A stretch of 64,000 bases of DNA. Origin: Arthrobacter sp. U41. GTDB taxonomy: Bacteria; Actinomycetota; Actinomycetes; Actinomycetales; Micrococcaceae. The notes under the pieces are model-generated. The model saw nothing but the letters and a program-made list of their open reading frames with translations, was not told the origin of the DNA and did no database searches. The stretch is taken from the NCBI RefSeq assembly GCF_007679325.1, contig NZ_VEGI01000003.1, forward strand, positions 136,242 through 200,241. Direction: 5' to 3'. The stretch's first letter is position 1; each line of letters starts with the position of its first letter. Shown one piece after another: positions 22,277 to 40,929 of this stretch. Position numbers and translations under genes: made by a program.

Positions 22277-22312
22277 CGGCGTCGGGGGTCTGCAGGGGCG
22301 GGGGCCAACCGC

Positions 22313-22369
22313 CGAGGTGACAGTTAAAGCCCATGCTCGCGCGGAACATGGGCTCTAACTGTCACCTCG
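22313..22369. repeat. Large intergenic palindrome (23-bp arms)
   Basis: Arms 22313-22335 and 22347-22369 are complementary apart from one mismatch, around an 11-base GC-rich loop. It lies between the convergent MFS and malate synthase genes and could be a two-way terminator or a palindromic repeat family member. Confidence 0.75.
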
Positions 22370-22473
22370 ACGCCGTTGTCGATTCAGAGGGTTTTCCGTC
22401 GCCGGGCCGCCGCCCCGGATCTCGGGGTGCCTGTTGCGAAGGGCATGGCAGCCCAGCGAACGGAATTCCGTAG

Positions 22474-28074: not shown

Positions 28075-29823
28075 ATGGCCAAGGAACTTGCGACCCAGCT
28101 CATCGAACAACTTCAAGCCGCCGGCGTACAACGGATCTACGGGATTGTCGGCGACAGTCTCAACCCGATTGTGGACGCCGTCCGGAAGACGGGTGGTGCC
28201 GCCAAGGGCGGGATCGACTGGATTCACGTCCGGCATGAGGAGGCCGCGGCGTTTGCGGCCGCGGCGGAGGCGCAGCTGACCGGCCGTCTGGCGGTGTGCG
28301 CCGGCTCTTGCGGGCCGGGGAACCTGCACCTGATCAACGGACTGTATGACGCCAACCGCTCCGGAGCCCCGGTGCTGGCCATCGCCTCGCACATACCCAG
28401 CAAACAAATCGGCAGCAGTTTCTTCCAGGAAACCCACCCGGACCGCCTCTTCAACGAGTGTTCGGTGTACTCAGAGCTGATCAGCACCGCCGAACAGGCC
28501 CCGAGGGTCATGCACAGCGCCATCCAGCACGCTGTCGCCCTCCGGGGCGTCGCCGTCGTGACCCTTCCCGGTGACATCGCGGACCTGGAGGCGGCAGCTC
28601 CAACCCCTGCCCCCGCAGCGTTCCGCCCGGCGGTGCTGGTGCCGGACCCCGCCAGCGTTCGGGAACTGGCCGAGGCCATCAACGCTGCGGACAAGGTGGC
28701 GATCTTCGCCGGTGCCGGCGTCGAGGGGGCGCACGGCGAGGTCATTGCACTGGCGGAAGCCGTGAACGCCCCGATCGGGCATTCGCTTCGCGGCAAGGAC
28801 TTTATGCAGTACGACAACCCCTATGACATCGGCATGACGGGGCTGCTGGGCTACGGCGCAGCCGCCGAGGGGATCGAGGACGCCGATCTGCTGATCCTGC
28901 TCGGCACGGATTTCCCCTACGACCAGTTCCTGCCGGGAACCCGCACGGCGCAGGTGGACCGGGCCGCGCAGAAACTGGGCCGCCGGACCGACGTCGACGT
29001 CGCGGTCCACGGCGACGTGCTGCCCACCCTCGCGGCCCTGATGCCCTTGATCCAGCCGAAGAAAAGCCGCCGCTTCCTCGATGCGATGCTTAAGAAGCAC
29101 GACCGGCTGATGAACAAGGCCGTCGGCGCCTACACGCGCAAAGTGGAAACCAAAGAGCCGATCCACCCCGAATACGCGGCGTCGGTGCTTGACCAGGTGG
29201 CGGCGAAAGACGCGATCTTCACCGCGGACACGGGCATGTGCAATGTCTGGACCGCCCGGTACATCAATCCGCTGGGAACCCGGCGGCTGATCGGGTCCTA
29301 CCTGCATGGTTCCATGGCGAACGCGCTTCCCCATGCGATCGGCGCCCAACTGGCTTACCCCGGACGCCAGGTGGTGTCGGTCTCGGGCGACGGCGGACTG
29401 TCGATGCTGCTGGGGGAGCTGATCACCGTTGCCGCGCACCGGCTCCCGGTCAACGTGGTGGTGTTCAACAACTCCACCCTGGGTATGGTCAAGCTGGAGA
29501 TGCTGGTGGACGGGCTCCCGGACTTCGGTGTGGACGTGCCCGACGCCAACTATGCCGCGGTGGCCCGCGCCCTCGGCTTCCACGCGGTCCGCGTCACCGA
29601 CCCGTCCCGCATCGAGGCCGCGTACCGGGAAGCCTTCGCGCACCCCGGACCGTCGCTCGTGGAGCTCATCACGGACCCCAAGGCGCTGTCCCTCCCGCCG
29701 AAGATCAAGGGCGCCCAGGTCCTGGGCTTCGCGACGGCGATGTCCAAGGTGGTCCTCAACCGCGGCACCGGCGAGGCCGTCAGCATGGCGCGGAGCAACC
29801 TGCGCAACATCCCGCGACGCTGA
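28075..29823 (+). CDS. poxB: Pyruvate:quinone oxidoreductase (pyruvate dehydrogenase, cytochrome/ubiquinone type)
   Basis: 582 aa. ThDP/FAD enzyme that decarboxylates pyruvate to acetate and CO2 and passes electrons to the membrane quinone pool. The catalytic Glu is in VRHEEAAAFAA, the FAD domain spans about 190-330, and the ThDP motif SGDGGLSML ... VVFNNSTLGM is near 435-470. The C-terminal region (FATAMSKVVLNRGTGEAVSMARSNLR) is like the membrane-binding tail of PoxB. ATG 28075 is chosen because the family begins here (AKELATQLIEQL); about 200 in-frame codons upstream are not PoxB-like. Confidence 0.92.
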   Translation: MAKELATQLIEQLQAAGVQRIYGIVGDSLNPIVDAVRKTGGAAKGGIDWIHVRHEEAAAFAAAAEAQLTGRLAVCAGSCGPGNLHLINGLYDANRSGAPVLAIASHIPSKQIGSSFFQETHPDRLFNECSVYSELISTAEQAPRVMHSAIQHAVALRGVAVVTLPGDIADLEAAAPTPAPAAFRPAVLVPDPASVRELAEAINAADKVAIFAGAGVEGAHGEVIALAEAVNAPIGHSLRGKDFMQYDNPYDIGMTGLLGYGAAAEGIEDADLLILLGTDFPYDQFLPGTRTAQVDRAAQKLGRRTDVDVAVHGDVLPTLAALMPLIQPKKSRRFLDAMLKKHDRLMNKAVGAYTRKVETKEPIHPEYAASVLDQVAAKDAIFTADTGMCNVWTARYINPLGTRRLIGSYLHGSMANALPHAIGAQLAYPGRQVVSVSGDGGLSMLLGELITVAAHRLPVNVVVFNNSTLGMVKLEMLVDGLPDFGVDVPDANYAAVARALGFHAVRVTDPSRIEAAYREAFAHPGPSLVELITDPKALSLPPKIKGAQVLGFATAMSKVVLNRGTGEAVSMARSNLRNIPRR

Positions 29824-29856
29824 CAGCCGGTCCCACGGTCCTCGCCGGGTCCGCCT

Positions 29857-29924
29857 CCGATTCGACGGTTCCGTGCGCGTTCGACGGCGGGATGCGTCGA
29901 ACGGGCAGGGAACCGTCGAAACGG
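29857..29924. repeat. 68-bp palindromic element, copy A
   Basis: Two 30-bp arms (29857-29886 and 29895-29924) pair with three mismatches around an 8-base loop. The outer arm sequence CCG(A/T)TTCGACGGTT recurs in two other 68-bp elements at 36598 and 37664. It lies 33 bp after the poxB stop, so it may also end that transcript. Confidence 0.85.
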
Positions 29925-30059
29925 TCGGGCGGCACCCTCAACAATCGGCGTCAAATCGTAACCTGTGCGTGGTCGCTCTTTTCCGGGCCCGCTGGTTGAC
30001 TGGCCCTAGGCGGATCCCCGCCCTTCCACTATCGCTGTTGTGCGGGTCTCGGGGGCGCG

Positions 30060-31334
30060 ATGAAACAGAGGATCTCGGCGCGGTTCGTCGCCGCGGGTGC
30101 GGCCATTGTGCTGGCCTTGACGGCCTGTTCCTCTTCGCCGCCGGCGATGTTGAAGGCCGACGGCGTCGAGCGCGTTTCGGCGGAAGGGTCCGCCTACCCG
30201 GCCGAGTTTGCCCAGCTTAGGGCGTCGGCGCGGATGCTGGGCGCCGCGCTTCTGGCAGACGGCGGGAATGCCGGAAACGGAAACGTGGTTTCGTCCCCGG
30301 GCAGCCTGCTGATCGCCCTGGCCTTGCTGCGGGCCGGCGCATCCGGCCCAACCGCTGCCGAGATGGACAGCGTGCTGGGCCTCCCCGCGGAGCATCGCGA
30401 CGAAGCCCTGAACGCGCTGTTGGCATCCTTGGAAACCTTCGACGGCGACCCCGGCTCGGTGGATGAAAAGAACCCTCCGCGCCGGCCGGTCCTGCACACG
30501 GCAAACGGCTTGTTCGTGGACAAGGGCGAGCCTACGGGGGAGGGCTATCTGCAGTCCCTGGCCCGCTTTTACGGAACCGGTGTGTACCCGGTGGACTTCC
30601 AGGATGAGGCGGCCACCAAACCGGCGATCGACGCTTGGGTGAACCAGAACACCGGCGGACGGATCAAGAGAGGGCCCGCGAAGTATGACCGTAGAGACAC
30701 GTTCAGCGTGCTCAACGCCGTGTACTTCGCCTCGGCGTGGAAGGTCCCCTTCGACCCGGCCGACACCGCCGATCTGCCCTTCACCACGCCCGACGGCGGG
30801 CAGGTTTCCGTCCCCACCATGTCGGGCGTTCAGGACCTTGCCTTCGCCCAGAGTGCAGGCTGGCAGGCGGCGGAGCTGCCCTATGCCGAGGGGTTCGTGA
30901 TGCGGCTCGTGCTGCCGGATGCCGGGGCCTCCATGCCCGGACCGCAGGAAGCCGCCGACGCCGCCCTGGCCCTTGACGCCGCCGCCCCGGCTCCCGTGCA
31001 GATCTTCTTGCCACGGTGGGACCACAAGAACGACTTTGAACTGCGTAAAGTCTTCACTGACCTGGGCCTGCAGGAAATGCTCCACACCGAGACCGACTTC
31101 AACGCAATCCAGCGCGGCCTCAAGATCCAAGCGGCAGGGCAGTCCGCCACGATCACAGTGGCGGAGAAAGGCACGGTTGCCGCTGCCGTGACCCAGATCA
31201 ACGCGCGGGCCGTCAGCGGCGTGGCAGCGACGACGGTGATCCATTTTGACCGGCCGTTTCAGTACGAAATCATCCATGCCGAGACCGGGCTGCCCCTATT
31301 TATGGGCAGGGTGTCCGATCCCCGCTCATCTTGA
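30060..31334 (+). CDS. Secreted serpin-family lipoprotein
   Basis: 424 aa. Lipoprotein signal with lipobox ALTAC, Cys23. The mature part has the serpin fold landmarks: NVVSSPGSLLIALALL near the start, TANGLFVD, LNAVYFASAWK, and the reactive-centre hinge EKGTVAAAVT beginning at Glu369, followed by an exposed loop and the C-terminal FDRPFQYEIIHAETGLPLFMGRVSDP. Small Ala/Val residues in the hinge fit an inhibitory serpin that inserts its loop after cleavage. It would act outside the membrane against extracellular or surface serine proteases. No partner protease is adjacent. Confidence 0.9.
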   Translation: MKQRISARFVAAGAAIVLALTACSSSPPAMLKADGVERVSAEGSAYPAEFAQLRASARMLGAALLADGGNAGNGNVVSSPGSLLIALALLRAGASGPTAAEMDSVLGLPAEHRDEALNALLASLETFDGDPGSVDEKNPPRRPVLHTANGLFVDKGEPTGEGYLQSLARFYGTGVYPVDFQDEAATKPAIDAWVNQNTGGRIKRGPAKYDRRDTFSVLNAVYFASAWKVPFDPADTADLPFTTPDGGQVSVPTMSGVQDLAFAQSAGWQAAELPYAEGFVMRLVLPDAGASMPGPQEAADAALALDAAAPAPVQIFLPRWDHKNDFELRKVFTDLGLQEMLHTETDFNAIQRGLKIQAAGQSATITVAEKGTVAAAVTQINARAVSGVAATTVIHFDRPFQYEIIHAETGLPLFMGRVSDPRSS

Positions 31335-31336
31335 GA

Positions 31337-31457
31337 CGCTCCCTCAGATTCTGCAGGGAAAAACCCAACGCTGCCTCAGCACGTGCGGGGGCGTCCGTAC
31401 AGCACCTGCCAGACCTGAGGGAGCGCCCGGACGGTAGCTGCCAGACCTGAGGGAGCG
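31337..31457. repeat. Intergenic repeat: exact 20-bp direct repeat with an inverted partner
   Basis: CTGCCAGACCTGAGGGAGCG occurs at 31406-31425 and again at 31438-31457. The reverse complement of its last 11 bases is at 31337-31347, so either copy can pair with the left arm. Lies between the convergent serpin and kinase genes. Confidence 0.75.
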
Positions 31458-31476
31458 ACTGGGGGAGGGATGAGGG

Positions 31477-32358
31477 TTAGCGCGGGCCGCCCTGCCAGAG
31501 CGCGTCGAACGGCGCGCCCGAGGCCACCCGGTTGCGGATTCCCGCGGTCACAAACGTCTTGGCCGTCCGGGCAGCCTCGAGCGGCGTCGCACCCTTGGCC
31601 AGCTCGGCGGTCACGGCGGCCGCCAGCGAGCAGCCGGCACCGGACACCGCCACGTCGCCCACCTTCGGGGCGGACAGGACCTCCAGCGTCTCGCCGTCGT
31701 AGTAGACGTCGACGGCGTCCGGCCCGGCCAGGCGCACGCCGCCCTTGGCGAGCACCGCGGCACCGCTGAGCTCGTGGATCCGGACCGCGGCGGCCTTGAG
31801 CGATTCGAGGTCGGTGATTTCAAGTCCGGAGAGGGACTCTGCCTCGAAATGGTTCGGTGTCACGAACGTGGCCAGCGGCAGGATCTGCGCTTTAAGGGCC
31901 TGGTCCGTGTCCAGTGCGTGGCCGGGCTCCTGGCCCTTGCAGATCAGCACCGGATCCAGGACCACATTCTCGAAGGCGGAGCGGGCCAGCGCCTCGGCGA
32001 CGGTGGAAATCGTCGCCGGACTGCCCAGCATGCCGATCTTCACGGTGTCCAGAACCGACGGTGCGCCGGACGCGGCACCGTAGGCCGCCGTCGTTGCCTC
32101 CAGCTGGTGGGCGATGACCTGCTGGTCGACCGGGACGAAGCGGTGGTTCCAGTTGTCCTGCGGATCGAAGGACACGATGCAGGTCAAGTTGGCGATGCCG
32201 AACACGCCCAGCTCCTGGAAGGTCTTCAGATCGGCCTGCGCGCCGGCGCCGCCGGTCGCTTCGGAGCCGGCGATGGTCAGGGCGACGGCGGGACCGGCCG
32301 CGGCGTCGTTGTGGGCGGGGGCCGCCAAGGCGGCGGAGTCAGAGGCGGTGGAAGTCAT
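31477..32358 (-). CDS. pdxK: Pyridoxine/pyridoxal kinase (PdxK, ThiD-like ribokinase fold)
   Basis: 293 aa. Ribokinase-fold kinase with TIAGSEATGGAGAQADLKTF and C-terminal SGAGCSLAAAV that holds the anion hole and catalytic base region. Details such as DPQDNWNHRFVPV, DPVLICKG and TAGIRNRV follow Bacillus PdxK more than ThiD, so vitamin B6 salvage (pyridoxine and related vitamers to 5'-phosphates) is preferred over hydroxymethylpyrimidine phosphorylation. The first 25 residues are a low-complexity N-terminal extension. Single gene between serpin and a transporter. Confidence 0.8.
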   Translation of the reverse strand: MTSTASDSAALAAPAHNDAAAGPAVALTIAGSEATGGAGAQADLKTFQELGVFGIANLTCIVSFDPQDNWNHRFVPVDQQVIAHQLEATTAAYGAASGAPSVLDTVKIGMLGSPATISTVAEALARSAFENVVLDPVLICKGQEPGHALDTDQALKAQILPLATFVTPNHFEAESLSGLEITDLESLKAAAVRIHELSGAAVLAKGGVRLAGPDAVDVYYDGETLEVLSAPKVGDVAVSGAGCSLAAAVTAELAKGATPLEAARTAKTFVTAGIRNRVASGAPFDALWQGGPR

Positions 32359-32500
32359 GGTCCCATCCTGCCACTACCGGAAAACCGCCCGCATTGTGCG
32401 GATGACCAATATGAACAAAACGCAAGTGTTCCGGATCACCGCTAATAAGGTGGCGGACGGTGTTGCTTTCTTGCGGCGCCGGATCCAGGAAGGTTCATTG

Positions 32501-33913
32501 ATGAGCACCCAGCTGTCCGAATCGGCACAGACCAGACGAGCCGTAAGCAATATTCTCAAAGGCTCCGCCGGCAATCTCGTTGAGTGGTTCGACGTCTATA
32601 TCTACACGGCATTCTCCGCCTACTTTGCCGTCCACTTCTTCAGCTCCAAGGACCCGCTGCAGAGCAATCTGGAAGCGATGGCCGTTTTCGCCGTTACGTT
32701 CCTGATGCGCCCGATTGGAGCGTGGTTCTTTGGTCGCTACGCGGACCGCAACGGCCGGAAGGCCGCGCTGACACTGAGTGTCACCATGATGTCGGCAGGC
32801 TCCTTCGCGATTGCCCTCCTCCCCACCAAAGATGTCATCGGCATCTGGGCTTTGGTCCTTCTAGTACTCATCCGACTGCTGCAGGGGTTCTCAGTCGGCG
32901 GAGAGTACGGTACGAGTGCCACGTACATGTCAGAAGCCGCTACCGCCAAGCGCCGCGGCTTTTTCTCCAGTTTCCAGTACGTCACCCTCATCGGCGGGCA
33001 GATGTTGGCGTTGCTGGTGCTCGTTGTCCTGGAGCAGACCCTCGGCAAGGACGTCCTGAGTGAATGGGGCTGGCGGATTCCGTTCGCAATCGGCGGCGTT
33101 GCTGCGCTCGTGGTCTTCTGGATCCGCCGGTCCATGGAGGAAACAATCTCTGTGGAGCAGGCTGCCGCCGCCAAGGCCGGGGCGGCCGGAGGTGAAGCCC
33201 AGCCGGGAACCTTGAAGCTGCTGTTCACACAACACTGGAAGTCCCTGCTGATCTGCATCGGCGTCACGTTGGGCGGCACGATGGCGTTCTACACCTATAC
33301 CAACTTCACGCTGTCTTTCATGCAGAACACGAGCGGTATTCCCAAAGAAAGCACCTCCGTTATCAGCTTCTGGGCACTGTTCATCTTCATGCTCCTGCAG
33401 CCGATATACGGCATGATTTCGGACCGCGTTGGCCGTAGGCCGCTGCTGCTCTGGTTTGGAATCAGCGGCGTGCTGCTGACCTGGCCGCTGCTGTCCGCGC
33501 TGGCCGGGACCAAGGACCCGTTCACCGCGTTCCTGCTCATGATGGGCGGCCTACTCATTGTCGGCGGCTATACGTCGATCAACGCCCTTGTGAAGGCCGA
33601 ACTGTTCCCGGCCTCCATTCGTGCCCTCGGCGTTGGCCTCGGCTACGCCATTGCCAACTCGCTATTCGGCGGCACCACGCCACTGGTGGGGGCGGCGTTC
33701 CAGAAAGCCGGTCAGGTGGAAGTCTTCTTCACCTACATCACTGTGGGCATCGGCATTTCGCTGCTCGTTTACATCTTCGCGCTGAAGAACAAGAAGTCCA
33801 CGCACTTGGACCACGAACAGGGCCACGCCTGGGCGCCCGCGGTTTCCCCGGTTTCCCCGGGCGACGGTCGCCTGGACGACGACAAGGACCTCGTCGACGC
33901 CTCGCGCCGCTAG
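32501..33913 (+). CDS. MHS-family (metabolite:H+ symporter) MFS transporter, alpha-ketoglutarate-permease-like
   Basis: 470 aa, about 12 membrane segments. MHS hallmarks: GNLVEWFDVYIYTAF near the start and RPIGAWFFGRYADRNGRK between helices 2 and 3, then QGFSVGGEYGTSATYMSE. This pattern is closest to KgtP-type dicarboxylate transporters. The AGGAAGG ribosome site supports ATG 32501; the open frame to 32114 is inside the divergent kinase gene. Substrate probably a small organic acid. Confidence 0.88.
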   Translation: MSTQLSESAQTRRAVSNILKGSAGNLVEWFDVYIYTAFSAYFAVHFFSSKDPLQSNLEAMAVFAVTFLMRPIGAWFFGRYADRNGRKAALTLSVTMMSAGSFAIALLPTKDVIGIWALVLLVLIRLLQGFSVGGEYGTSATYMSEAATAKRRGFFSSFQYVTLIGGQMLALLVLVVLEQTLGKDVLSEWGWRIPFAIGGVAALVVFWIRRSMEETISVEQAAAAKAGAAGGEAQPGTLKLLFTQHWKSLLICIGVTLGGTMAFYTYTNFTLSFMQNTSGIPKESTSVISFWALFIFMLLQPIYGMISDRVGRRPLLLWFGISGVLLTWPLLSALAGTKDPFTAFLLMMGGLLIVGGYTSINALVKAELFPASIRALGVGLGYAIANSLFGGTTPLVGAAFQKAGQVEVFFTYITVGIGISLLVYIFALKNKKSTHLDHEQGHAWAPAVSPVSPGDGRLDDDKDLVDASRR

Positions 33914-33945
33914 GGCCACCGGCCGCTCGCGAACGGGCGGCGCTT

Positions 33946-34005
33946 ACGACGGCGGGTTGGCCGGCTACGGAACGCACGTTCCGGGAGCCGGCGGCCCGCC
34001 GTCGT
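33946..34005. terminator. Compound hairpin between convergent transporter genes
   Basis: Outer arms around 33946-33966 and 33986-34005 pair almost fully (ACGACGGCGGG with CCCGCCGTCGT at the ends), and an inner perfect 6-bp stem CGGAAC/GTTCCG at 33968-33983 sits in the loop. Suited to stop transcription from both sides. Confidence 0.65.
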
Positions 34006-34064
34006 CGTTAATGCGGGCGGTGCCGGGGCGGCGCTGCTGCTGGGCTGCTGCCGTTCAGCGGGAG

Positions 34065-34847
34065 CTACTGGGCGTTGTCTGCGAACCGCAACTGCAGGAT
34101 CGTCGCGGTGGTGCCTGCCATGAACGTCCCCGCCAGCACCACGTAGCTGCCGGCCGTGAGCGTGTCGACCGGGTCCGCCACCATTCCGATCAGCAGCGGG
34201 ACGATCGAGTAGGGGAACCACTCGGCCCAGCCGGTTCTGCCGAACAGGTTTCCCAGGGCGAGCATCACAAGGGAGAAGGCAATGGGGGCCACCTCACCGC
34301 GGCTCAACACGGCGATCCAGGCAACCACGGGAGCGAGCAGGAAGGATATCGACGCTGCGAGCAGCACGTTTGCCAGGCCGGTAGCTGCCAGCTCGGCAGA
34401 GAATTTCGGCAGCCCCATCGCAAATCCGATCGCCATCGCCTCGGCGAGGACGAGGACGATGAGGGCCATCCACCACACAGCCGCGACCGCAAGCTTGGCG
34501 ACGGCGAACCAGTGACGGGCCACGGGCAGCGCGAGCATGTTCTTGGCGGTGGCGTCGCTGTACTCCCGGCCGAACAAGTAGGCGACGATGAACGCCAGCA
34601 GGAGCATCCCGCCAATGCCAAAGATCAGGGTGAGCATGTAGAAGTATTCGGGCCACGTTGCCTCGAGGCCAGCGAGGCTCGCTTTGGTGCCTACAAGCCC
34701 CAGCTGGGCCGCCCGCCCTGGCTCGCGCACGATCCACATGAACAGCGCTATGCCGAGCGGCATCATCGCGAGCACCGCCAGGGTGGCCCAGGTCGCCTTG
34801 GCACGGTGGAGCTTCATGAATTCGGTGGCGAGAACCTGGCCGAACAT
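34065..34847 (-). CDS. ABC-2-type permease
   Basis: 260 aa with about six membrane segments. Start LATEFMKLHRAKATW is typical of ABC-2 / bacitracin- or lantibiotic-immunity permeases (BcrB-like), as is GREYSDATAKNMLALPVARH. It pairs with the ATPase encoded just upstream, with 1-nt overlap. Exported substrate unknown; families of this kind often protect against membrane-active peptides. Confidence 0.87.
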   Translation of the reverse strand: MFGQVLATEFMKLHRAKATWATLAVLAMMPLGIALFMWIVREPGRAAQLGLVGTKASLAGLEATWPEYFYMLTLIFGIGGMLLLAFIVAYLFGREYSDATAKNMLALPVARHWFAVAKLAVAAVWWMALIVLVLAEAMAIGFAMGLPKFSAELAATGLANVLLAASISFLLAPVVAWIAVLSRGEVAPIAFSLVMLALGNLFGRTGWAEWFPYSIVPLLIGMVADPVDTLTAGSYVVLAGTFMAGTTATILQLRFADNAQ

Positions 34848-35650
34848 CAGGCCACCGGACCCTTGGCTGCCTCGCCCGTGCGCGCGAGGAAATACCGCTC
34901 CAGGTCCAGCGTCAGCAGCGCCTGTTCGCGTTCTTCCGGGGTGTAGGCGTCGGCGGCGAAGGAGCGTGCCTTCGCCGCGAGGTCCTCGCGCGACGACTCC
35001 TCGATGAGGCGGCCGTTGTGGATGATGCCGATACGGTCGGCAAGATGGGCCACCTCGGCAAGGATGTGGCTCGACATAAAGACGGTGACGCCGCGTTCGC
35101 CGGCGAGTGAGCGAAGGAGATCGCGGATCTCGACGATGCCGGCCGGGTCGAGGCCGTTGGCGGGCTCGTCGAGCACCAGCAGTTCGGGGGAGTGCAGCAG
35201 CGCGCGGGCGAGCGAGAGGCGCTGCTTGTTGCCGAGCGAGAGCTGCCCGGCGCGCCGCCCGGCGTACGGGCCCAGGCGGAGCAGCGTGATCGAGTCCTCC
35301 ACCGACCCCGGCGGTGAGCCGGTGAGGCGGCGCTGAATGTCGAGGTTTTCGCGCACAGTGAGGTTGGGGTAGGCGGTGGCCGTCTCGACAAGGAATCCGA
35401 CGCGCGAGAACATGTTCGTCTCACCGGGGACCATGCGCTGGCCGAGTACGGTTACTTCTCCGCCGCTCGGTCGGATCAGACCGAGCAACATACGGATTGT
35501 GGTGGTCTTTCCCGCCCCGTTCCTGCCAAGGAATCCGTAAATTTCTCCGCGGCGGACGTCGAGGTTCAGCGAGTCGACGGCGGTGACGTCGCGGTACCGC
35601 TTGACGAGGGCGCGCGTGGAAACTGCGGTGGCAGGATGGGTCTCCTCCAT
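34847..35650 (-). CDS. ABC transporter ATP-binding protein (BcrA/CcmA type)
   Basis: 267 aa. Walker A GRNGAGKTTT, signature LSLGNKQRLSLA, Walker B LLVLDEPANGLDPAG and H-loop MSSHILAEV. Pairs with the ABC-2 permease. Resembles the drug/antibiotic-peptide exporters of the BcrA class. No regulator or two-component system is adjacent. Confidence 0.9.
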   Translation of the reverse strand: MEETHPATAVSTRALVKRYRDVTAVDSLNLDVRRGEIYGFLGRNGAGKTTTIRMLLGLIRPSGGEVTVLGQRMVPGETNMFSRVGFLVETATAYPNLTVRENLDIQRRLTGSPPGSVEDSITLLRLGPYAGRRAGQLSLGNKQRLSLARALLHSPELLVLDEPANGLDPAGIVEIRDLLRSLAGERGVTVFMSSHILAEVAHLADRIGIIHNGRLIEESSREDLAAKARSFAADAYTPEEREQALLTLDLERYFLARTGEAAKGPVA

Positions 35651-35883
35651 GGCCCCATCCTGCCACCACGCCCGGAGCGTTCACAGAGCGGGTATTCACA
35701 GCCGGCCGAGGACGGGTTCGGGTTCTGGCGGCAGCCGGTTCGTGTGCCTGCGCGGGGTGAGAGAATGGAAGACGGTTCCCGCGGCCAGCCCGCCAGGAAC
35801 CATCCAGTGCTAATACAGCCGGCCGCCGTGTTGTCCTCCATGAGGATCCGGGCGCCGAGCGAACCACTACGAATGGAACACCC

Positions 35884-36579
35884 ATGACTTCCGCCAAAAC
35901 CATGCCGGCCGCAGCCCCGCCAAAGTTCGCTTCCATCGGCTCCCCGTACTTCGGCATCATGCTCGCTGCCATGGCCGTGGTGCTGATCCTGTCCAACATC
36001 GGGGCATCGAAAGGCGTCGCAATCGGCCCGATCATCACCGACGGCGGCTTCTTCCTCTTCCCGCTGGCCTACATCCTGGGCGATGTCATCAGCGAGGTCT
36101 ATGGCTTCAAGGTGGCGCGCAAGGCTATTTTCACCACGTTCGCGCTGTCCGTCTTCGCGTCGCTCTGCTACTGGGTCATCATCGCGCTGCCGGGCTTCGA
36201 CGACGATTTCGGCGCCGCCAAGCAGTCCGCTCTGGAAGGCGCCCTGGGCCCGGTCCCGCAGATTGTGCTCGCCTCGCTGCTGGCGTTCCTGGCCGGACAG
36301 ACGATCAACGCCTGGATCCTGGTGAAGATGAAGGCGCGCACGGGGGAGAAGTCCCTCTGGGCACGCATCATGGGTTCGTCAGTGGCCGGTGAGTTCGTGG
36401 ATACCCTGATTTTCTGCAGCATCGCGGCTTCCGTTATCGGAATTACCGACGTCGGCACGTTCGTGAATTACGTCGCTGTGGGCTTCCTCTACAAGACCCT
36501 CGTGGAGTTCCTCTTCGTCCCGGTCACGGCGGGCGCGATCGGCTGGATCAAGAAGCGCGAACCGAGCTACGGGGCGTAG
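35884..36579 (+). CDS. yhhQ: Queuosine-precursor transporter (VUT/YhhQ family)
   Basis: 231 aa. About six membrane segments with the family's conserved LSNIGASKG, TDGGFFLFPLAYILGDVISEVYGF and SVAGEFVDTLIFCSIA. This family takes up preQ0/preQ1 or related bases. The tgt gene lies 1.2 kb away on the other strand, and both fit salvage of queuosine precursors. A 233-bp region upstream contains no riboswitch I can identify. Confidence 0.9.
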   Translation: MTSAKTMPAAAPPKFASIGSPYFGIMLAAMAVVLILSNIGASKGVAIGPIITDGGFFLFPLAYILGDVISEVYGFKVARKAIFTTFALSVFASLCYWVIIALPGFDDDFGAAKQSALEGALGPVPQIVLASLLAFLAGQTINAWILVKMKARTGEKSLWARIMGSSVAGEFVDTLIFCSIAASVIGITDVGTFVNYVAVGFLYKTLVEFLFVPVTAGAIGWIKKREPSYGA

Positions 36580-36597
36580 GGGTTCCTTGTACCTCCG

Positions 36598-36665
36598 CCG
36601 TTTCGACGGTTCCGTGCCCACTCGACGCGGCCAACCGTCTAGCCGCCGCGGAACCGTCGAAACGG
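36598..36665. repeat. 68-bp palindromic element, copy B
   Basis: Outer arms 36598-36614 and 36649-36665 pair perfectly over 17 bp; the centre is less symmetric. Same outer motif and same exact length as copies A and C. It begins 19 bp after the yhhQ stop, and its right part encodes the last eight codons and stop of the AbiEi-like gene. Confidence 0.85.
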
Positions 36666-37601
36666 CGGGCTGTCGGCCGCCGAGCCCCGGCTCAAGGCCC
36701 GCAGCACCCGGTACTTGAACTCCACTTCGTTAAACAAGTCCCGCCACTCGATCCGGATGAACGTCCAGCCCTGTTCCATCAGTGCTTTCTCGCGGCGCCG
36801 CTCGGCGAACAGGACGTCGCCCGTGGGACGGTAGTCGAAGTACTTGGTCCTGCCGTCGAACTCGAGGGCAACCATTCGCTCCGGCCACGCAAAGTCCAGC
36901 CGGTGCTCCCCGAGCGGCGTCCGGACCACGAACTGCACCTCGGGCGGCGTGACCCTGAGCCTGTGCAGCAGTTCCCTTGTCAGGCTCTCGCCGGCAGACT
37001 CGGAGCGGGGGTCAGCCAGTTCGAGGGCCCGCCGCAAGGCGACCACTCCGTTGCGGCCTGCGAGATCGGTGCACCGGGCCCGGACGAGGCCAAGGTCAGC
37101 GCCCATCCGGGCGGCGTGATCCATCAGAATTACGGCTTGCGGCACGGTGAACATCAGGCAGCAATCCACCACGGTGCGTTCCAGCGAGGTGCAGGGAAGC
37201 CCGTCCACGAAGCACACCTCGTGGCTGCCCAGAGGCCGGGTGTGCGCCACGACGTCGCGCCCATGCGATATCCCGGAGGGGCATTTCTCCTGGGTCAGGT
37301 GCACCCGGTCGTCGACTTTCCACAGCTGGAGGTCATGCAGGCTGGCACCCGAGACGTGGCTGTAGACAAAGCGCCCCGGCGACGTCCTTAGCGTCCCGAG
37401 CGAATGGGCGAAGACCAGCTGCCGCCGTCGGACGGTGGAGTTCAGCCCCCGCCACCACTCTGCACGCGCGTAAGTGCCCCGGCGCAATCGGATGAGCTCC
37501 GCCCCTTGCACCAGCTGTGCAATGGCCCGGGAGTTCAGTCCGGATGCCAGGAGCTGGTCCGTGCGCCAGAGGTCCGCGGTTGCGGGGAGTTCGAGGGTCA
37601 T
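36639..37601 (-). CDS. AbiEi-like N-terminal domain fused to DUF559 / Vsr-like PD-(D/E)xK nuclease domain
   Basis: 320 aa. The N-terminal half begins with a winged-helix-like region (TDQLLASGLNSRAIAQLVQGAELIRLRRGTY) seen in AbiEi-type antitoxins of type IV toxin-antitoxin systems. The C-terminal half (about 200-310) is DUF559-like, with possible nuclease residues Glu in ESLTRELL, Asp in HRLDFAWP and Glu-Phe-Asp in ALEFDGRTKYF, then FIRIEWRDL. No AbiEii nucleotidyltransferase toxin is adjacent, which is common for these orphan fusions. Its final residues PFRRFRGG are encoded by palindrome copy B, and copy C lies 63 bp upstream of its start. Function unknown; defence or DNA repair is possible. 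Confidence 0.8.
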   Translation of the reverse strand: MTLELPATADLWRTDQLLASGLNSRAIAQLVQGAELIRLRRGTYARAEWWRGLNSTVRRRQLVFAHSLGTLRTSPGRFVYSHVSGASLHDLQLWKVDDRVHLTQEKCPSGISHGRDVVAHTRPLGSHEVCFVDGLPCTSLERTVVDCCLMFTVPQAVILMDHAARMGADLGLVRARCTDLAGRNGVVALRRALELADPRSESAGESLTRELLHRLRVTPPEVQFVVRTPLGEHRLDFAWPERMVALEFDGRTKYFDYRPTGDVLFAERRREKALMEQGWTFIRIEWRDLFNEVEFKYRVLRALSRGSAADSPPFRRFRGG

Positions 37602-37663
37602 GGAACCAGCGTCACGCGCGCGTACTCCTCCGCCCAGAGACTTGGGCGGGTATGTGGAAAGCC

Positions 37664-37731
37664 CCGATTCGACGGTTGCCTGCCTGCTCGACGTTTCCCG
37701 ACGTCGTGGGCGCAGGGAACCGTCGAATCGG
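37664..37731. repeat. 68-bp palindromic element, copy C
   Basis: Arms 37664-37693 and 37702-37731 (30 bp each) pair with a few mismatches around an 8-base loop, the same size and layout as copy A. It sits 28 bp after the tgt stop and 63 bp before the AbiEi-like start on the minus strand, and may serve as the tgt terminator. Confidence 0.85.
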
Positions 37732-37758
37732 CGGCGACCCCGACGCCGGCCGTGGAAC

Positions 37759-39057
37759 CTAGGAGTAGTAGTTCCGCAGGGTCTCGGTCTTGAACTCGAA
37801 GAAGTTGCCGGCCTCGATGGCGAGACGGGCGTCGTCGACCATTTTCACCACAAAGCGCTCGTTGTGGATCGAGATCAGCGTGGCGGAGACCATTTCCTTG
37901 GCTTTGAACAGGTGGTGGATGTAGGCCCGCGAATAGTTCAGGCAGGCGTAGCAGTCGCAGCCTTCCTGCAGCGGGCCGAAGTCGCGCTTGTACATGGCGC
38001 CGGAGAGGTTGTACCGGCCGGTGGGGTGGTAGAACGCCGAGTTCCGGGCCACCCGGGTGGGGGAGACACAGTCGAAGGTGTCCGCGCCGTTCTCGATCGC
38101 GGTGAAAATATCGTCCGGCTCGGAGATGCCGAGGAGGTGCCGGGGTTTGTTCTCCGGCAGTTCCTCGTTGCACCAGCGCACGATGGTGCCCAGGTTCTCC
38201 TTCTCCAGGGCGCCGCCGATGCCGAAGCCGTCGAAGTTCATGGCGCCCAGGTCCCGGCAGGCCTTCCGGCGCAGGTCCTCGTACTGCGCGCCCTGGATGA
38301 CCCCGAACAGGGCCTGGTAGGGCTTGCCCGCCCGTTCAGCGGTCAGCCGGAAATGCTCGGCAATGCAGCGCTCGGCCCAGCGGCGCGTGCGCTCCAGTGA
38401 CTCCTCCTGGTAGCCGCGGGAATTCTGCAGCGTGGTGAGCTCATCGAAGGCGAACATGATGTCCGCGCCGATCTGGTGCTGGACGTTCATGGAGATCTCA
38501 GGGCTGAAGCGGTGCCGGTCGCCGTTGAGGTGGCTTTTAAACCACACGCCTTCCTCGTCCACGTGGGCCAGGCGCTCCTTGCCGGGGGCGACGGCGTCAT
38601 CGGGCCCCGAATTGTCCACCGACTTCATGTCGATGACCTTCTTGAACCCCGAGCCCAGGCTCATCACCTGGAACCCGCCGGAGTCGGTGAAGGTGGGCCC
38701 GCGCCAGTTCATGAACGCGCCCAGCCCGCCGGCCTCATCCAGGATGTCTGCGCCGGGCTGCAGGTACAGGTGGTAGGCGTTGGCCAGCACGGCCTGCGCG
38801 CCCAGCTCGGCAACAGACTCCGGGAGCACCGACTTGACGGTGGCCTTGGTGCCGACGGCGATGAACGCGGGGGTCTGGATCTCGCCGTGCGGTGTGGTGA
38901 TGGTGCCGGTGCGGCCCAGGAACTCCCCGCCGTTGGCCGCAATTTGCGCCTCCGACGGCGCGCAACTTTCGCTCAGGCGTTTGCCCACGCGGAAGGAAAA
39001 CTCGGACTGCTGGGCCGGCAGGAGCGGCGGCACGGGTGATTCAGGATTGGCTGGCAC
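37759..39057 (-). CDS. tgt: Queuine/preQ tRNA-guanine transglycosylase
   Basis: 432 aa. Exchanges guanine at the wobble position of GUN-anticodon tRNAs for a queuine-type base. Catalytic Asp residues are in TFTDSGGFQVMSLG and in DTFDCVSPTR; zinc ligands are the CDCYAC cluster and a His in YIHHLF near the C terminus. An N-terminal extension of about 40 residues precedes the fold. With yhhQ nearby it gives a minimal salvage route. No queuosine biosynthesis genes occur in this window. Confidence 0.94.
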   Translation of the reverse strand: MPANPESPVPPLLPAQQSEFSFRVGKRLSESCAPSEAQIAANGGEFLGRTGTITTPHGEIQTPAFIAVGTKATVKSVLPESVAELGAQAVLANAYHLYLQPGADILDEAGGLGAFMNWRGPTFTDSGGFQVMSLGSGFKKVIDMKSVDNSGPDDAVAPGKERLAHVDEEGVWFKSHLNGDRHRFSPEISMNVQHQIGADIMFAFDELTTLQNSRGYQEESLERTRRWAERCIAEHFRLTAERAGKPYQALFGVIQGAQYEDLRRKACRDLGAMNFDGFGIGGALEKENLGTIVRWCNEELPENKPRHLLGISEPDDIFTAIENGADTFDCVSPTRVARNSAFYHPTGRYNLSGAMYKRDFGPLQEGCDCYACLNYSRAYIHHLFKAKEMVSATLISIHNERFVVKMVDDARLAIEAGNFFEFKTETLRNYYS

Positions 39058-39090
39058 CGTTCAAGTGTGCCAGCTAACAGCCGCCAACCC

Positions 39091-39816
39091 TTAGTGGAGC
39101 GGATCGGATGTGGGGTAGTTCTCAGCCCGCCACTTGTCCCAGTAGCTGCGAATGGACTCCAGCTGGTGCGCCCCGAGGTCATAGGTGGAGACGATCACCA
39201 GGGACCCGCCCTCGGGCCGGATGTCCTTGATGGCCGGCTGGTCCGCCACGATCACCAGGCCCTCGCCGTGCTCGGCGTAGTGGTGGACCGTGAGCCCCAC
39301 CTGGTGGTTGCTACGGAACCAGACCCTGCCGGAGATTTCCTCGCCCGTCGCCAGGGTGAGCGAATACGGTTCACCGGGCTTGGGAACGTCCGAGAGTCCC
39401 AGCTTTTCGATGGCGGACCCGTCGTTCCCGGGGACCGAGAAGAAGAAGGTACGGCGGTTGCCGTGCGGATGCCGTTCAAGGGCAAAACGAAGCTGCTGGA
39501 TGAACGTCAGCCAGCCCTGGGTGATGTCCTCGTCCCAGGCGGCCCACTCGGAATTGTGGTCCACGGCGGCCCGAGTGACGCTGACTTCCGTGCCGGTCGG
39601 AACCGGTTTCAGGGTGAACACGTCCCCACCGTCGACCACCAGGGAGGTGTGGTCGGCGCCTTCAATGACATTGGGGCTGAAGTAGATTTCATTGATCTCT
39701 GCCGCCTGGTCGTCGGCCTCCCAGCCGTGCCACTGGGCTACCTTGGCGGGTTCGCGCAGCATTGTCCAAACCTGCTGCGCGTCGGAGTTGATCACAACGC
39801 TCAGATTGTTCGTCAT
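39091..39816 (-). CDS. SRPBCC (START/AHSA1-like) domain protein
   Basis: 241 aa. The first 150 residues have the helix-grip pattern of SRPBCC proteins (VINSDAQQVWTMLREPAKVAQWHGW ... GWLTFIQQLRFALERH). The last 90 are predicted as a second alpha/beta piece with TYDLGAHQLESIRSYWDKWR. A hydrophobic-ligand-binding or stress role is typical; ligand unknown. It is upstream of tgt on the same strand by 34 bp and could be co-transcribed. Confidence 0.7.
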   Translation of the reverse strand: MTNNLSVVINSDAQQVWTMLREPAKVAQWHGWEADDQAAEINEIYFSPNVIEGADHTSLVVDGGDVFTLKPVPTGTEVSVTRAAVDHNSEWAAWDEDITQGWLTFIQQLRFALERHPHGNRRTFFFSVPGNDGSAIEKLGLSDVPKPGEPYSLTLATGEEISGRVWFRSNHQVGLTVHHYAEHGEGLVIVADQPAIKDIRPEGGSLVIVSTYDLGAHQLESIRSYWDKWRAENYPTSDPLH

Positions 39817-39864
39817 GGGGTGAATCTACAACGGCCGGCCGTGAGGGGGTAGGGGCCAAACGCC

Positions 39865-40929
39865 TTAGGAGCGGACAGACTCGAGCTCGTTGCCGATCCG
39901 GCGGTCCAGCTCGGTGGCGCCGATGGTCTCCGATCCGCCGTGGGCGCGCAGGAACAGGAGCGTCTCGAGCCGCAGGAGCCGCCACTCGCGTTCCGCATCC
40001 GGGTTCGAGTTGTCCATCGAGCGGAAGATTTCCTTGTCGTACAGGTTCGGTTCGTTGAGCGAGCGCTGGCGGACCTTGGCGTTGATCCGGGCCTTGAACG
40101 GGTCCGTCTCCATGGCTTCGGGGGCGCGGAGGAACTTCTCGTAGACGGCGGCGCGTTCTTCCTGGCCGAGCTGGCGGCAGATGTAGCTGGACAGCGCCAG
40201 GGAGGCTTCTACCGACGACCAGCGGCCGCGGTTGCCGTCGAAGGGCAGCACATTGAGCAGATCCGCAACGGCGAGGGCGTTCTCGGGATCCTTGAGGATG
40301 ATGAACAGCTCCTGCGCGAGGTCGCTGAGGTCCTTAAGGCAGCTGCCGGACTTGGTGTTGATGCCCTTGGCCAGGCGCTCGCTGAGCAGCAGCACCCCCA
40401 CCGACTTCGGGTGCGCCCCGGCCGCCGCCTCCACCACGGACTCGGGCGTGCCCACCGGGGCAGGAATCAGGGCCAGGTCCTCTTCGCTGGGGCCGCTCAC
40501 CGCGGGCGGAGCGGGCGGCAGGGGAGGAACGACGACGGCGGCAGCGCCGCCGTCGTTCTCCCCGCGCTTGTCCTGAGCACCGGCGCCGGCCTGAACGCTG
40601 CCGGCCTCATTGCTGTCGACGTCGGCCCTGCCATCCTCCGTGGCCGCGTCGACGAGCTGCACCGGCGAGCCTTCGTCGTCCGACGGGGTTTCCGCAACCT
40701 CGGCCGCCGCCTCCAGAATCAGGACAGTGGACGCGGCCGCAATCCGGAGTCCGCCGCCGCCGGTGAGGGTCGCCAGGACCATGGCCGGGGTGCCGAAATC
40801 GTCGGTTTCGACGTCCACGCGCTGAATTTCGGCGGAGCGGTTGCCGTCGGGCAGGAGCAGATGATCGCCGCTCTGCAGAGATCCAGCCTGCTGTTCGATG
40901 TAGTTCGGGGCGGCCGGGGGGTGGGTCAT
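39865..40929 (-). CDS. Uncharacterised actinobacterial protein, possibly DUF6707
   Basis: 354 aa. A small N-terminal barrel-like section (SGDHLLLPDGNRSAEIQRVDV) is joined by an acidic, Ala/Pro-rich linker (about 80-170) to a helical C-terminal domain rich in Leu and charged residues. No catalytic motif, signal or membrane segment is visible. I associate it loosely with a domain of unknown function found in Arthrobacter. It follows the Nudix-like gene and precedes the SRPBCC gene, all on the minus strand. Confidence 0.65.
   Translation of the reverse strand: MTHPPAAPNYIEQQAGSLQSGDHLLLPDGNRSAEIQRVDVETDDFGTPAMVLATLTGGGGLRIAAASTVLILEAAAEVAETPSDDEGSPVQLVDAATEDGRADVDSNEAGSVQAGAGAQDKRGENDGGAAAVVVPPLPPAPPAVSGPSEEDLALIPAPVGTPESVVEAAAGAHPKSVGVLLLSERLAKGINTKSGSCLKDLSDLAQELFIILKDPENALAVADLLNVLPFDGNRGRWSSVEASLALSSYICRQLGQEERAAVYEKFLRAPEAMETDPFKARINAKVRQRSLNEPNLYDKEIFRSMDNSNPDAEREWRLLRLETLLFLRAHGGSETIGATELDRRIGNELESVRS

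Follow-up and report, generated by a model that had tools for sequence, protein, structure and literature searches.

Locus and palindromes of the window

The DNA analysed here is a stretch of 64,000 nucleotides from Arthrobacter sp. U41, which is called the window below. A gene for a predicted nuclease-domain protein of 320 amino acids (36639–37601, minus strand; assigned with the aid of the open reading frame list, Pfam, PADLOC and the predicted fold) lies there between yhhQ (35884–36579, plus strand) and tgt (37759–39057, minus strand). It is bracketed by two palindromes of 68 bp each: copy C (37664–37731) is located upstream, 62 bp 5′ of the start codon, and copy B (36598–36665) downstream, where it covers the last 8 codons of the gene and the stop codon. 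The initial annotation had placed a single gene between two 68-bp palindromes at these positions and had noted that copy B encodes the end of the gene; both statements were confirmed. The two copies had also been described as identical in length and outer sequence, which holds for the length (68 bp); the outer arms are almost, not fully, alike (CCGTTTCGACGGTTCC vs. CCGATTCGACGGTTGC).

A solo palindrome of 68 bp (copy A, 29857–29924) lies in the gap that follows a gene whose end is at 29823, and a fourth copy lies outside the window in the same genome (G000:C25:218586–218653). The complete assembly (3.89 Mb, 31 contigs) was searched by BLAST and with sequence patterns and gave, at the cut-offs used, these 4 places, all of them within about 53 kb. 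The pattern TCGACGGTTN{20,50}AACCGTCGA was matched 3 times in the window and 0 times in 100 shuffles. As single strands, copies A, B and C fold far better than shuffled sequences (z from −6.3 to −9.6 in five foldings). Rfam gave no match in 29000–40000 at E 1 and none in the whole window at the gathering score. Scans of 35600–39100 returned no promoter-like sites and no consensus T-run terminator at the palindromes, the sole terminator site being 38115–38132.

The encoded protein

The N terminus of the window protein resembles AbiEi in sequence and the C terminus resembles MTES_1575/DUF559. Its Pfam matches (AbiEi_4 and MTES_1575) are weak and both fall below the curated cut-offs; the best AbiEi match in PADLOC has E=8e-13. 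An alignment of 53 sequences was prepared from the window protein and 52 proteins taken from the best 80 of 305 relatives, and among these 53 homologues MTES_1575 was matched by 53, AbiEi_4 by 46 and DUF559 by 16 at E 0.01. A profile search of the PDB sequences gave no match at E 0.1.

The structure was predicted with confidence (mean pLDDT 89.6, pTM 0.86). Residues 1–197 of the model were superimposed on AbiEi (6y8q; Z 11.1, rmsd 7.1, 178 residues) and on Rv2827c (1zel; Z 9.7, rmsd 4.7, 187 residues), and residues 203–308 on the catalytic domain of I-Bth0305I (3r3p; Z 12.8, rmsd 2.2 Å, 96 residues), on NGO0050 (Z 11.6) and on Vsr (Z 9.6). For both parts the fold match is clearer than the sequence match, and the fusion of an AbiEi-type N terminus to a DUF559/Vsr-like nuclease, proposed in the initial annotation, is upheld in this form: the protein is predicted to consist of an AbiEi fold (approximately residues 1–197) joined to a Vsr/I-Bth0305I-like nuclease domain (approximately residues 203–308). 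The two folds span nearly the whole protein, and an identity as a HUH (Y1) transposase was not found. Ten residues (E201, E205, D236, E247, D249, K253, E267, R268, R270 and E271) are invariant in the 53 sequences; judged from the predicted fold, they presumably have a catalytic role. Comparison of the gene with 10 homologues indicated purifying selection (dN/dS 0.13–0.23).

Flanking palindromes of related genes

The search for relatives covered 199 genomes, namely 121 of the genus (own genome included) and 78 of the order. Relatives of the protein were found at E 1e-20 in 119 of these 199 genomes. A strict pattern for the palindromes of the A type, to which copy A belongs, was matched in 24 of the 199, all within the genus, and the reversed control pattern gave no match in the same 199 genomes. 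Flanking palindromes were located with a simple script at score thresholds of 10, 12 and 14. For the genus, 110 loci were used, which were taken from the top of the list of relatives with the addition of one lower row (L144; G054:C8 and other lower rows were excluded).

At score 10, at least one flanking palindrome was found in 105 of the 110 genus copies and palindromes on both sides in 66, with a chance expectation in these loci of about 10 upstream and about 7 downstream; the other 5 copies have no flanking palindrome even at this score. At a score of at least 12, palindromes were found upstream of 65, downstream of 67 and on both sides of 41 of the 110 copies, compared with a background expectation of 4.6 upstream and 3.1 downstream in the same loci, which corresponds to an approximately 14- to 21-fold excess at this stricter threshold. 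In other genera, 30 loci from 16 genomes (obtained from 38 matches) gave 17 palindromes upstream, 21 downstream and 14 pairs. A separate subfamily (38–44% identity), consisting of 20 lower rows of the list that had been unused before, was analysed last: a palindrome was found downstream in 16/20, upstream in 8/20 and on both sides in 7/20, against a background of 1 palindrome in 60,745 bp.

The offsets are regular. The upstream palindrome is often located 130–180 bp 5′ of the start of the gene (farther in some lineages) and, in many lineages, the downstream palindrome is located around the stop codon. Judged from the sequences, the link between gene and palindrome is general, as it recurs in the genus, in the separate subfamily and in other genera with palindromes of differing sequence. 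A statistical tie between the palindromes and AbiEi/DUF559 genes, which the initial annotation had made a test of its proposal, is therefore present.

Architecture of the palindromes

A clear direct repeat was detected in 54% of 298 palindrome halves from the genus (5% of shuffles) and in 70% of 66 halves from other genera (10% of shuffles; 33 palindromes from 22 of the 30 loci, score 12, span of at least 56). The repeat period was 19 or 20 in 149 of the 161 genus halves with a clear repeat and in 44 of the 46 such halves from other genera. From this period, the commonest form can be written as a-a-a′-a′, that is, four half-sites at intervals of about two helical turns. About 46% of the halves in the genus and about 30% outside it, including those of L302, L288 and L290, are without a clear repeated half-site.

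The pairing of the spacers between the half-sites was compared in three families. In the A family (66 sequences) it is close to chance, with little or no excess; the C family (135 sequences) has a modest excess; and the family of G145 (13 sequences; L276 and L305–L321) has a large excess, with strong co-variation between the halves. Because the halves of the A family pair about as well as the conservation of the half-sites predicts, this family favours half-sites that are read in double-stranded DNA. The co-varying spacers of the G145 family favour a folded strand, or one half that was copied from the other. The C family is intermediate between the two, and the comparison favours neither the hairpin nor the double-strand reading for all families.

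Palindrome type, gene lineage and site

The outer half-sites found in the genus include CGACGGTT, CGATGGTT, CGCCGGAA, CGCTGGAA, CGCGGGAA, CGCGGGTT and CGTGGGTG, and the palindromes of other genera have still other outer sequences. A gene tree was calculated for 108 copies (L125 and L140 were dropped from the 110 as too short), of which 60 lie at the tgt site, 18 at a uricase site and 30 elsewhere. The occurrence of the gene at these other sites agrees with the proposal in the initial annotation that the gene and its two palindromes form a unit.

The tgt-site genes split into separate clades. One of them, clade A, comprises 13 tgt-site genes that adjoin the uricase-site genes in the tree, and the CGACGG arm was found in 13/13. 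Among the other 45 tgt-site copies, CGCCGG was found in 36, CGCTGG in 8 and CGCGGG in 6 (some with two of these arms), CGACGG or CGATGG in 0, and two copies have none of the five arms. The uricase-site copies are less uniform: only 9 of 19 have the CGATGG arm, the remainder having other arms or none. In the tree, two further tgt-site genes (L048 and L050) lie among the uricase-site genes, yet they carry CGACGGTT like the tgt-site genes of clade A; they may have retained an older state, and an effect of the site would fit as well. With L048 and L050 assigned to the A group, palindrome similarity scores averaged 54.5 within this group, 28.1 between it and the uricase-site genes, and 15.0 between the two tgt-site groups.

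Flanks were compared within genomes for 24 copies from 18 genomes that have several copies. For 20 of these 24, the two flanks of a copy are more alike than either is to any of the palindromes beside the other copies (sign test, p=0.0008; copies that share a genome are not independent). Four exceptions (L137, L130, L126 and L102) were kept in the count; by eye, one flank of each seems to be an unrelated sequence that the finder picked up in error. On these sequence comparisons, palindrome type largely follows the gene lineage, more than the site or the genome and with the exceptions given; since it does so even where the site or the genome is shared, the gene and its palindromes look like partners.

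Solo copies and shared gaps

Solo palindromes of the A type were found in 13 of the 16 genus genomes in which an A-type gene is present, whole or as a remnant, and in 8 of the 105 in which it is not (Fisher, p=9e-10), as tallied by hand from the coordinates and with L048 and L050 assigned to the A type through their palindromes, which is circular; 3 of the 16 have no solo A-type copy. To avoid this circularity, the count was repeated with the strict clade A of the tree plus the remnant in G046, and solo copies were then present in 11/14 genomes as compared with 10/107 (p=8e-8). An association at the level of genomes is not independent evidence, because gene and genome share ancestry; this inflates the genome-level counts, and the within-genome and same-site comparisons are least affected by it. 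C-type palindromes were found in 71 of 122 genomes (flanks of genes counted in) and TCGATGG-type palindromes in 22 of 122, although a few of the latter matches are unrelated.

The CGAGATCGAC pattern, which was derived from G145, was matched in 7 of the 18 genomes of its genus, which is a different one from that of the window, with up to 19 overlapping matches per genome. The search with this pattern, for which DNA alone was used, led to a pair of palindromes in G201; the gene between them shares 71% identity with that of G145. The place in G201 accounts for three overlapping loci among the 17 that were returned, and no such gene lies near the other places of these 17. A bracketed homologue had been predicted in this way from the palindrome and was found through it.

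Of 30 solo copies, 14 are located between tandem, 7 between convergent and 3 between divergent genes, 3 lie inside predicted open reading frames and 3 are unclear, as judged with a crude gene finder; for many, a predicted gene is no more than about 35 bp away. By eye, the gap of copy A also holds a palindrome of the A type in G044; elsewhere it holds sequence of the CGCCGGAA type, complete in G019 and in part in some other genomes. The fourth site holds the A type in G000, G046, G044 and G086 and the CGCCGGAA type in G061, G053, G117 and G088 (likewise by eye). The gaps at 29857–29924 and at L002:1501–1568 contain different palindrome families in different species, as if such gaps were recurrent landing places or as if a resident palindrome had been rewritten.

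Gain, loss and possible mobility

For the gap between tgt and yhhQ, the analysis covered 20 relatives in which the list of relatives of the protein had no entry next to tgt. In 4 of the 20 the gap is free of a gene and only about 3, 40, 44 and 49 bp long; empty sites of the kind sought in the initial annotation do exist, and its view that the block separates two genes that would otherwise be neighbours is supported. A relic resembling half a palindrome is present in the gap of G047 (49 bp) and of G119 (102 bp). Broken pieces of the gene were found in the gap of G053 and of G032 and, in the close relative G046, between two palindromes. A different open reading frame occupies the gap in eight relatives (L226, L230, L231, L232, L236, L237, L240 and L241); by eye, it resembles an enzyme of the dienelactone-hydrolase type. 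The gap of L232 also holds a CTCGCGGGTT-type palindrome.

In the gaps at the solo sites, upstream of yhhQ and between tgt and yhhQ, which are too diverged for the ends of an insertion to be read, no clean junction with a duplicated target site was recognised. Neither of the outcomes named in the initial annotation as refuting its proposal, that is, fixation of gene and repeats at the same place in all relatives and absence of a statistical link, was found. Relatives are rare in plasmids and phages: 2 of 72,556 plasmid records matched at E 1e-10 and 2 of 50,697 phage records at E 1e-5 (nuclease part only), and of the 26 stretches of viral contigs that matched the seed pattern, 0 were confirmed as relatives.

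A probable nuclease with its own target

The gene and its palindromes are probably one unit, in which a site-specific nuclease is kept together with its DNA target. At the level of sequence, this reading is supported by the own palindrome family of each gene lineage, by the frequent arrangement of four half-sites and by the solo copies elsewhere. The winged-helix/AbiEi part would bind the half-sites, two to four copies of the protein would come together over about 60 bp, and a nick or cut would be made by the Vsr-like domain within or near the palindrome. Repair of the cut could copy the palindrome, or the palindrome–gene–palindrome block, to new places or to emptied alleles; the upstream copy of the palindrome probably doubles as an autoregulatory operator. 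The pair would be inherited mostly vertically, with occasional moves and losses, like RAYT genes and REP sequences. That palindromes and gene spread in this way, or are copied through repair, is inferred from their distribution. The reading of half-sites and the cutting are plausible because known relatives carry out comparable steps: Rv2827c, a relative of AbiEi, is reported to bind four inverted repeats (PMC7319586), and I-Bth0305I is described as forming a dimer on its target, which spans nearly 60 bp (PMC3943268). Counted against this explanation were the low copy numbers (4 in the own genome), the lack of a recognisable clean insertion, the 5 of 110 genus copies that have no flanking palindrome, the 4 of 24 copies whose flanks did not match best, the arms of L048, L050 and those uricase-site copies that are without CGATGG, the halves that show no clear repeat, and the genomes in which A-type gene and solo A-type copy do not go together.

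Alternatively, the AbiEi part could be a repressor with the upstream palindrome as its operator, in which case the downstream and solo copies would be extra sites for the control of genes or the organisation of DNA, and the nuclease domain would have another role or be a relic. AbiEi-type proteins are described as autoregulating through inverted repeats in their own promoters (PMC7319586), the position of the upstream palindrome (start often 130–180 bp 5′ of the gene) would suit an operator, and half-site conservation, as for double-stranded binding sites, explains the pairing of the A-family halves. An operator with a regulon is nevertheless an unlikely explanation, given that the downstream copies of many lineages lie around the stop codon (67/110 at score 12; 16/20 in the separate subfamily), that just 3 of the 30 solo copies lie between divergent genes, and that E201, E205, D236, E247, D249 and K253 of the nuclease domain are invariant in the 53 sequences.

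The occurrence of palindromes in genomes without the gene (8/105) and of different palindrome families in one gap in different species would also be expected of REP-like or transposon-like elements of other origin, beside which the gene was often inserted or between which it rides. This is quite improbable: a chance neighbour would not match its type to the gene copy within a genome (20/24), and similar offsets are kept across several lineages and genera. The description of the gene as cargo between repeats in the initial annotation is accordingly retained for the unit and abandoned for the passenger role, as the palindrome sequence largely tracks the gene lineage. The same annotation had considered a small defence or toxin–antitoxin-like module, for which the AbiEi-type fold and the PADLOC AbiEi matches speak; we consider it highly improbable, and no support for it was found. 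As had been noted, no AbiEii partner lies beside the gene. In many cases the gene occupies a conserved site with housekeeping genes on either side, few relatives were found among the plasmid and phage records, and 0 were confirmed in viral contigs. Least probable of all are transcription terminators that were kept for termination between tightly packed genes. The window copies do form strong hairpins, and many solo copies lie no more than about 35 bp from a predicted gene, but the consensus scan of 35600–39100 found no T-run terminator at the palindromes, and termination would explain neither the lineage-specific half-sites at 19–20 bp nor the copies upstream of the gene.

Comparison with known systems

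For the predicted nuclease and its putative target, REP/RAYT (REPtrons, REPINs) is the closest working analogue. There, too, dispersed palindromes in gaps are accompanied by a cognate gene that is flanked by them, and gene and palindromes co-diverge; here the copy numbers are low, and L048, L050 and 4 of the 24 within-genome tests are exceptions to co-divergence. RAYT (TnpA_REP) is described as a protein of the HUH superfamily that processes single-stranded REP (PMC8266576), whereas the present protein, with its AbiEi fold and Vsr-like nuclease, is unrelated to HUH; since the defining HUH transposase is absent, the unit is not a member of REP/RAYT. Unlike REP, the palindrome is often an array of four half-sites of about 56–84 bp.

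The catalytic domain has its best fold match in I-Bth0305I, an EDxHD homing endonuclease (Z 12.8, 2.2 Å, 96 residues), whose dimer-bound target of nearly 60 bp (PMC3943268) is long, as is the putative target here. The I-Bth0305I family is placed among the group I homing endonucleases, whereas the present gene is free-standing in gaps between genes, contains a part of the AbiEi type and has its putative target on either side. Residues 1–197 share the fold of AbiEi and Rv2827c (Z 11.1 and 9.7) of the type IV toxin–antitoxin system AbiE, and binding to multiple inverted repeats is reported for these proteins (PMC7319586). In contrast to AbiE, no gene for an AbiEii nucleotidyltransferase toxin adjoins (the neighbours are yhhQ and tgt), a nuclease domain is added, and the repeats flank the gene on either side and recur at other places in the genome. 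The C-terminal fold is that of Vsr and the DUF559/MTES_1575 nucleases, with weak sequence similarity; unlike for Vsr, no mismatch-repair setting is apparent, and no Pfam match of the window protein reaches the cut-off.

No description of the pairing of gene and palindrome was found in searches of an open-access literature collection; the RepRanger paper (PMC12306157) mentions Arthrobacter a single time, in a table. The protein families are already known by name, and for the cognate palindromes no description was found in that collection. The sequences suggest an undescribed class of nuclease-and-target unit. A broader and more tentative proposal, to which we give slightly less than an even chance, is that many actinobacterial genes named AbiEi or DUF559 encode site-specific nucleases, each of which spreads or maintains four-half-site palindromes of its own, and that nuclease and palindromes form a new, widespread class of selfish or domesticated unit with lineage-specific targets. 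If this is true, actinobacterial genes that are named only AbiEi or DUF559 would gain a function and a readable target, the candidate recognition sequence beside each gene would provide many natural pairs of protein and DNA specificity, and cognate pairs of palindrome and nuclease would have arisen more than once from unrelated proteins (HUH for REP, Vsr-like here).

Further repeats in the window and the own genome

A near-perfect palindrome of unrelated sequence is located in a gap of the window at 22310–22372 (arms of 29 nt, 90% complementary and 5 nt apart). The own genome contains further relatives of the gene. A pair of 59-bp sequences (90% alike) flanks L007, one on each side, and L006 has a 26-nt repeat (85%) on either side. 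Another AbiEi/DUF559 relative, L008 (contig C11), has its repeats on the downstream side (L008:2185–2395); they are both direct and inverted, contain a CTGACACGAATGGCCGCTAA unit and are located immediately 3′ of the gene.
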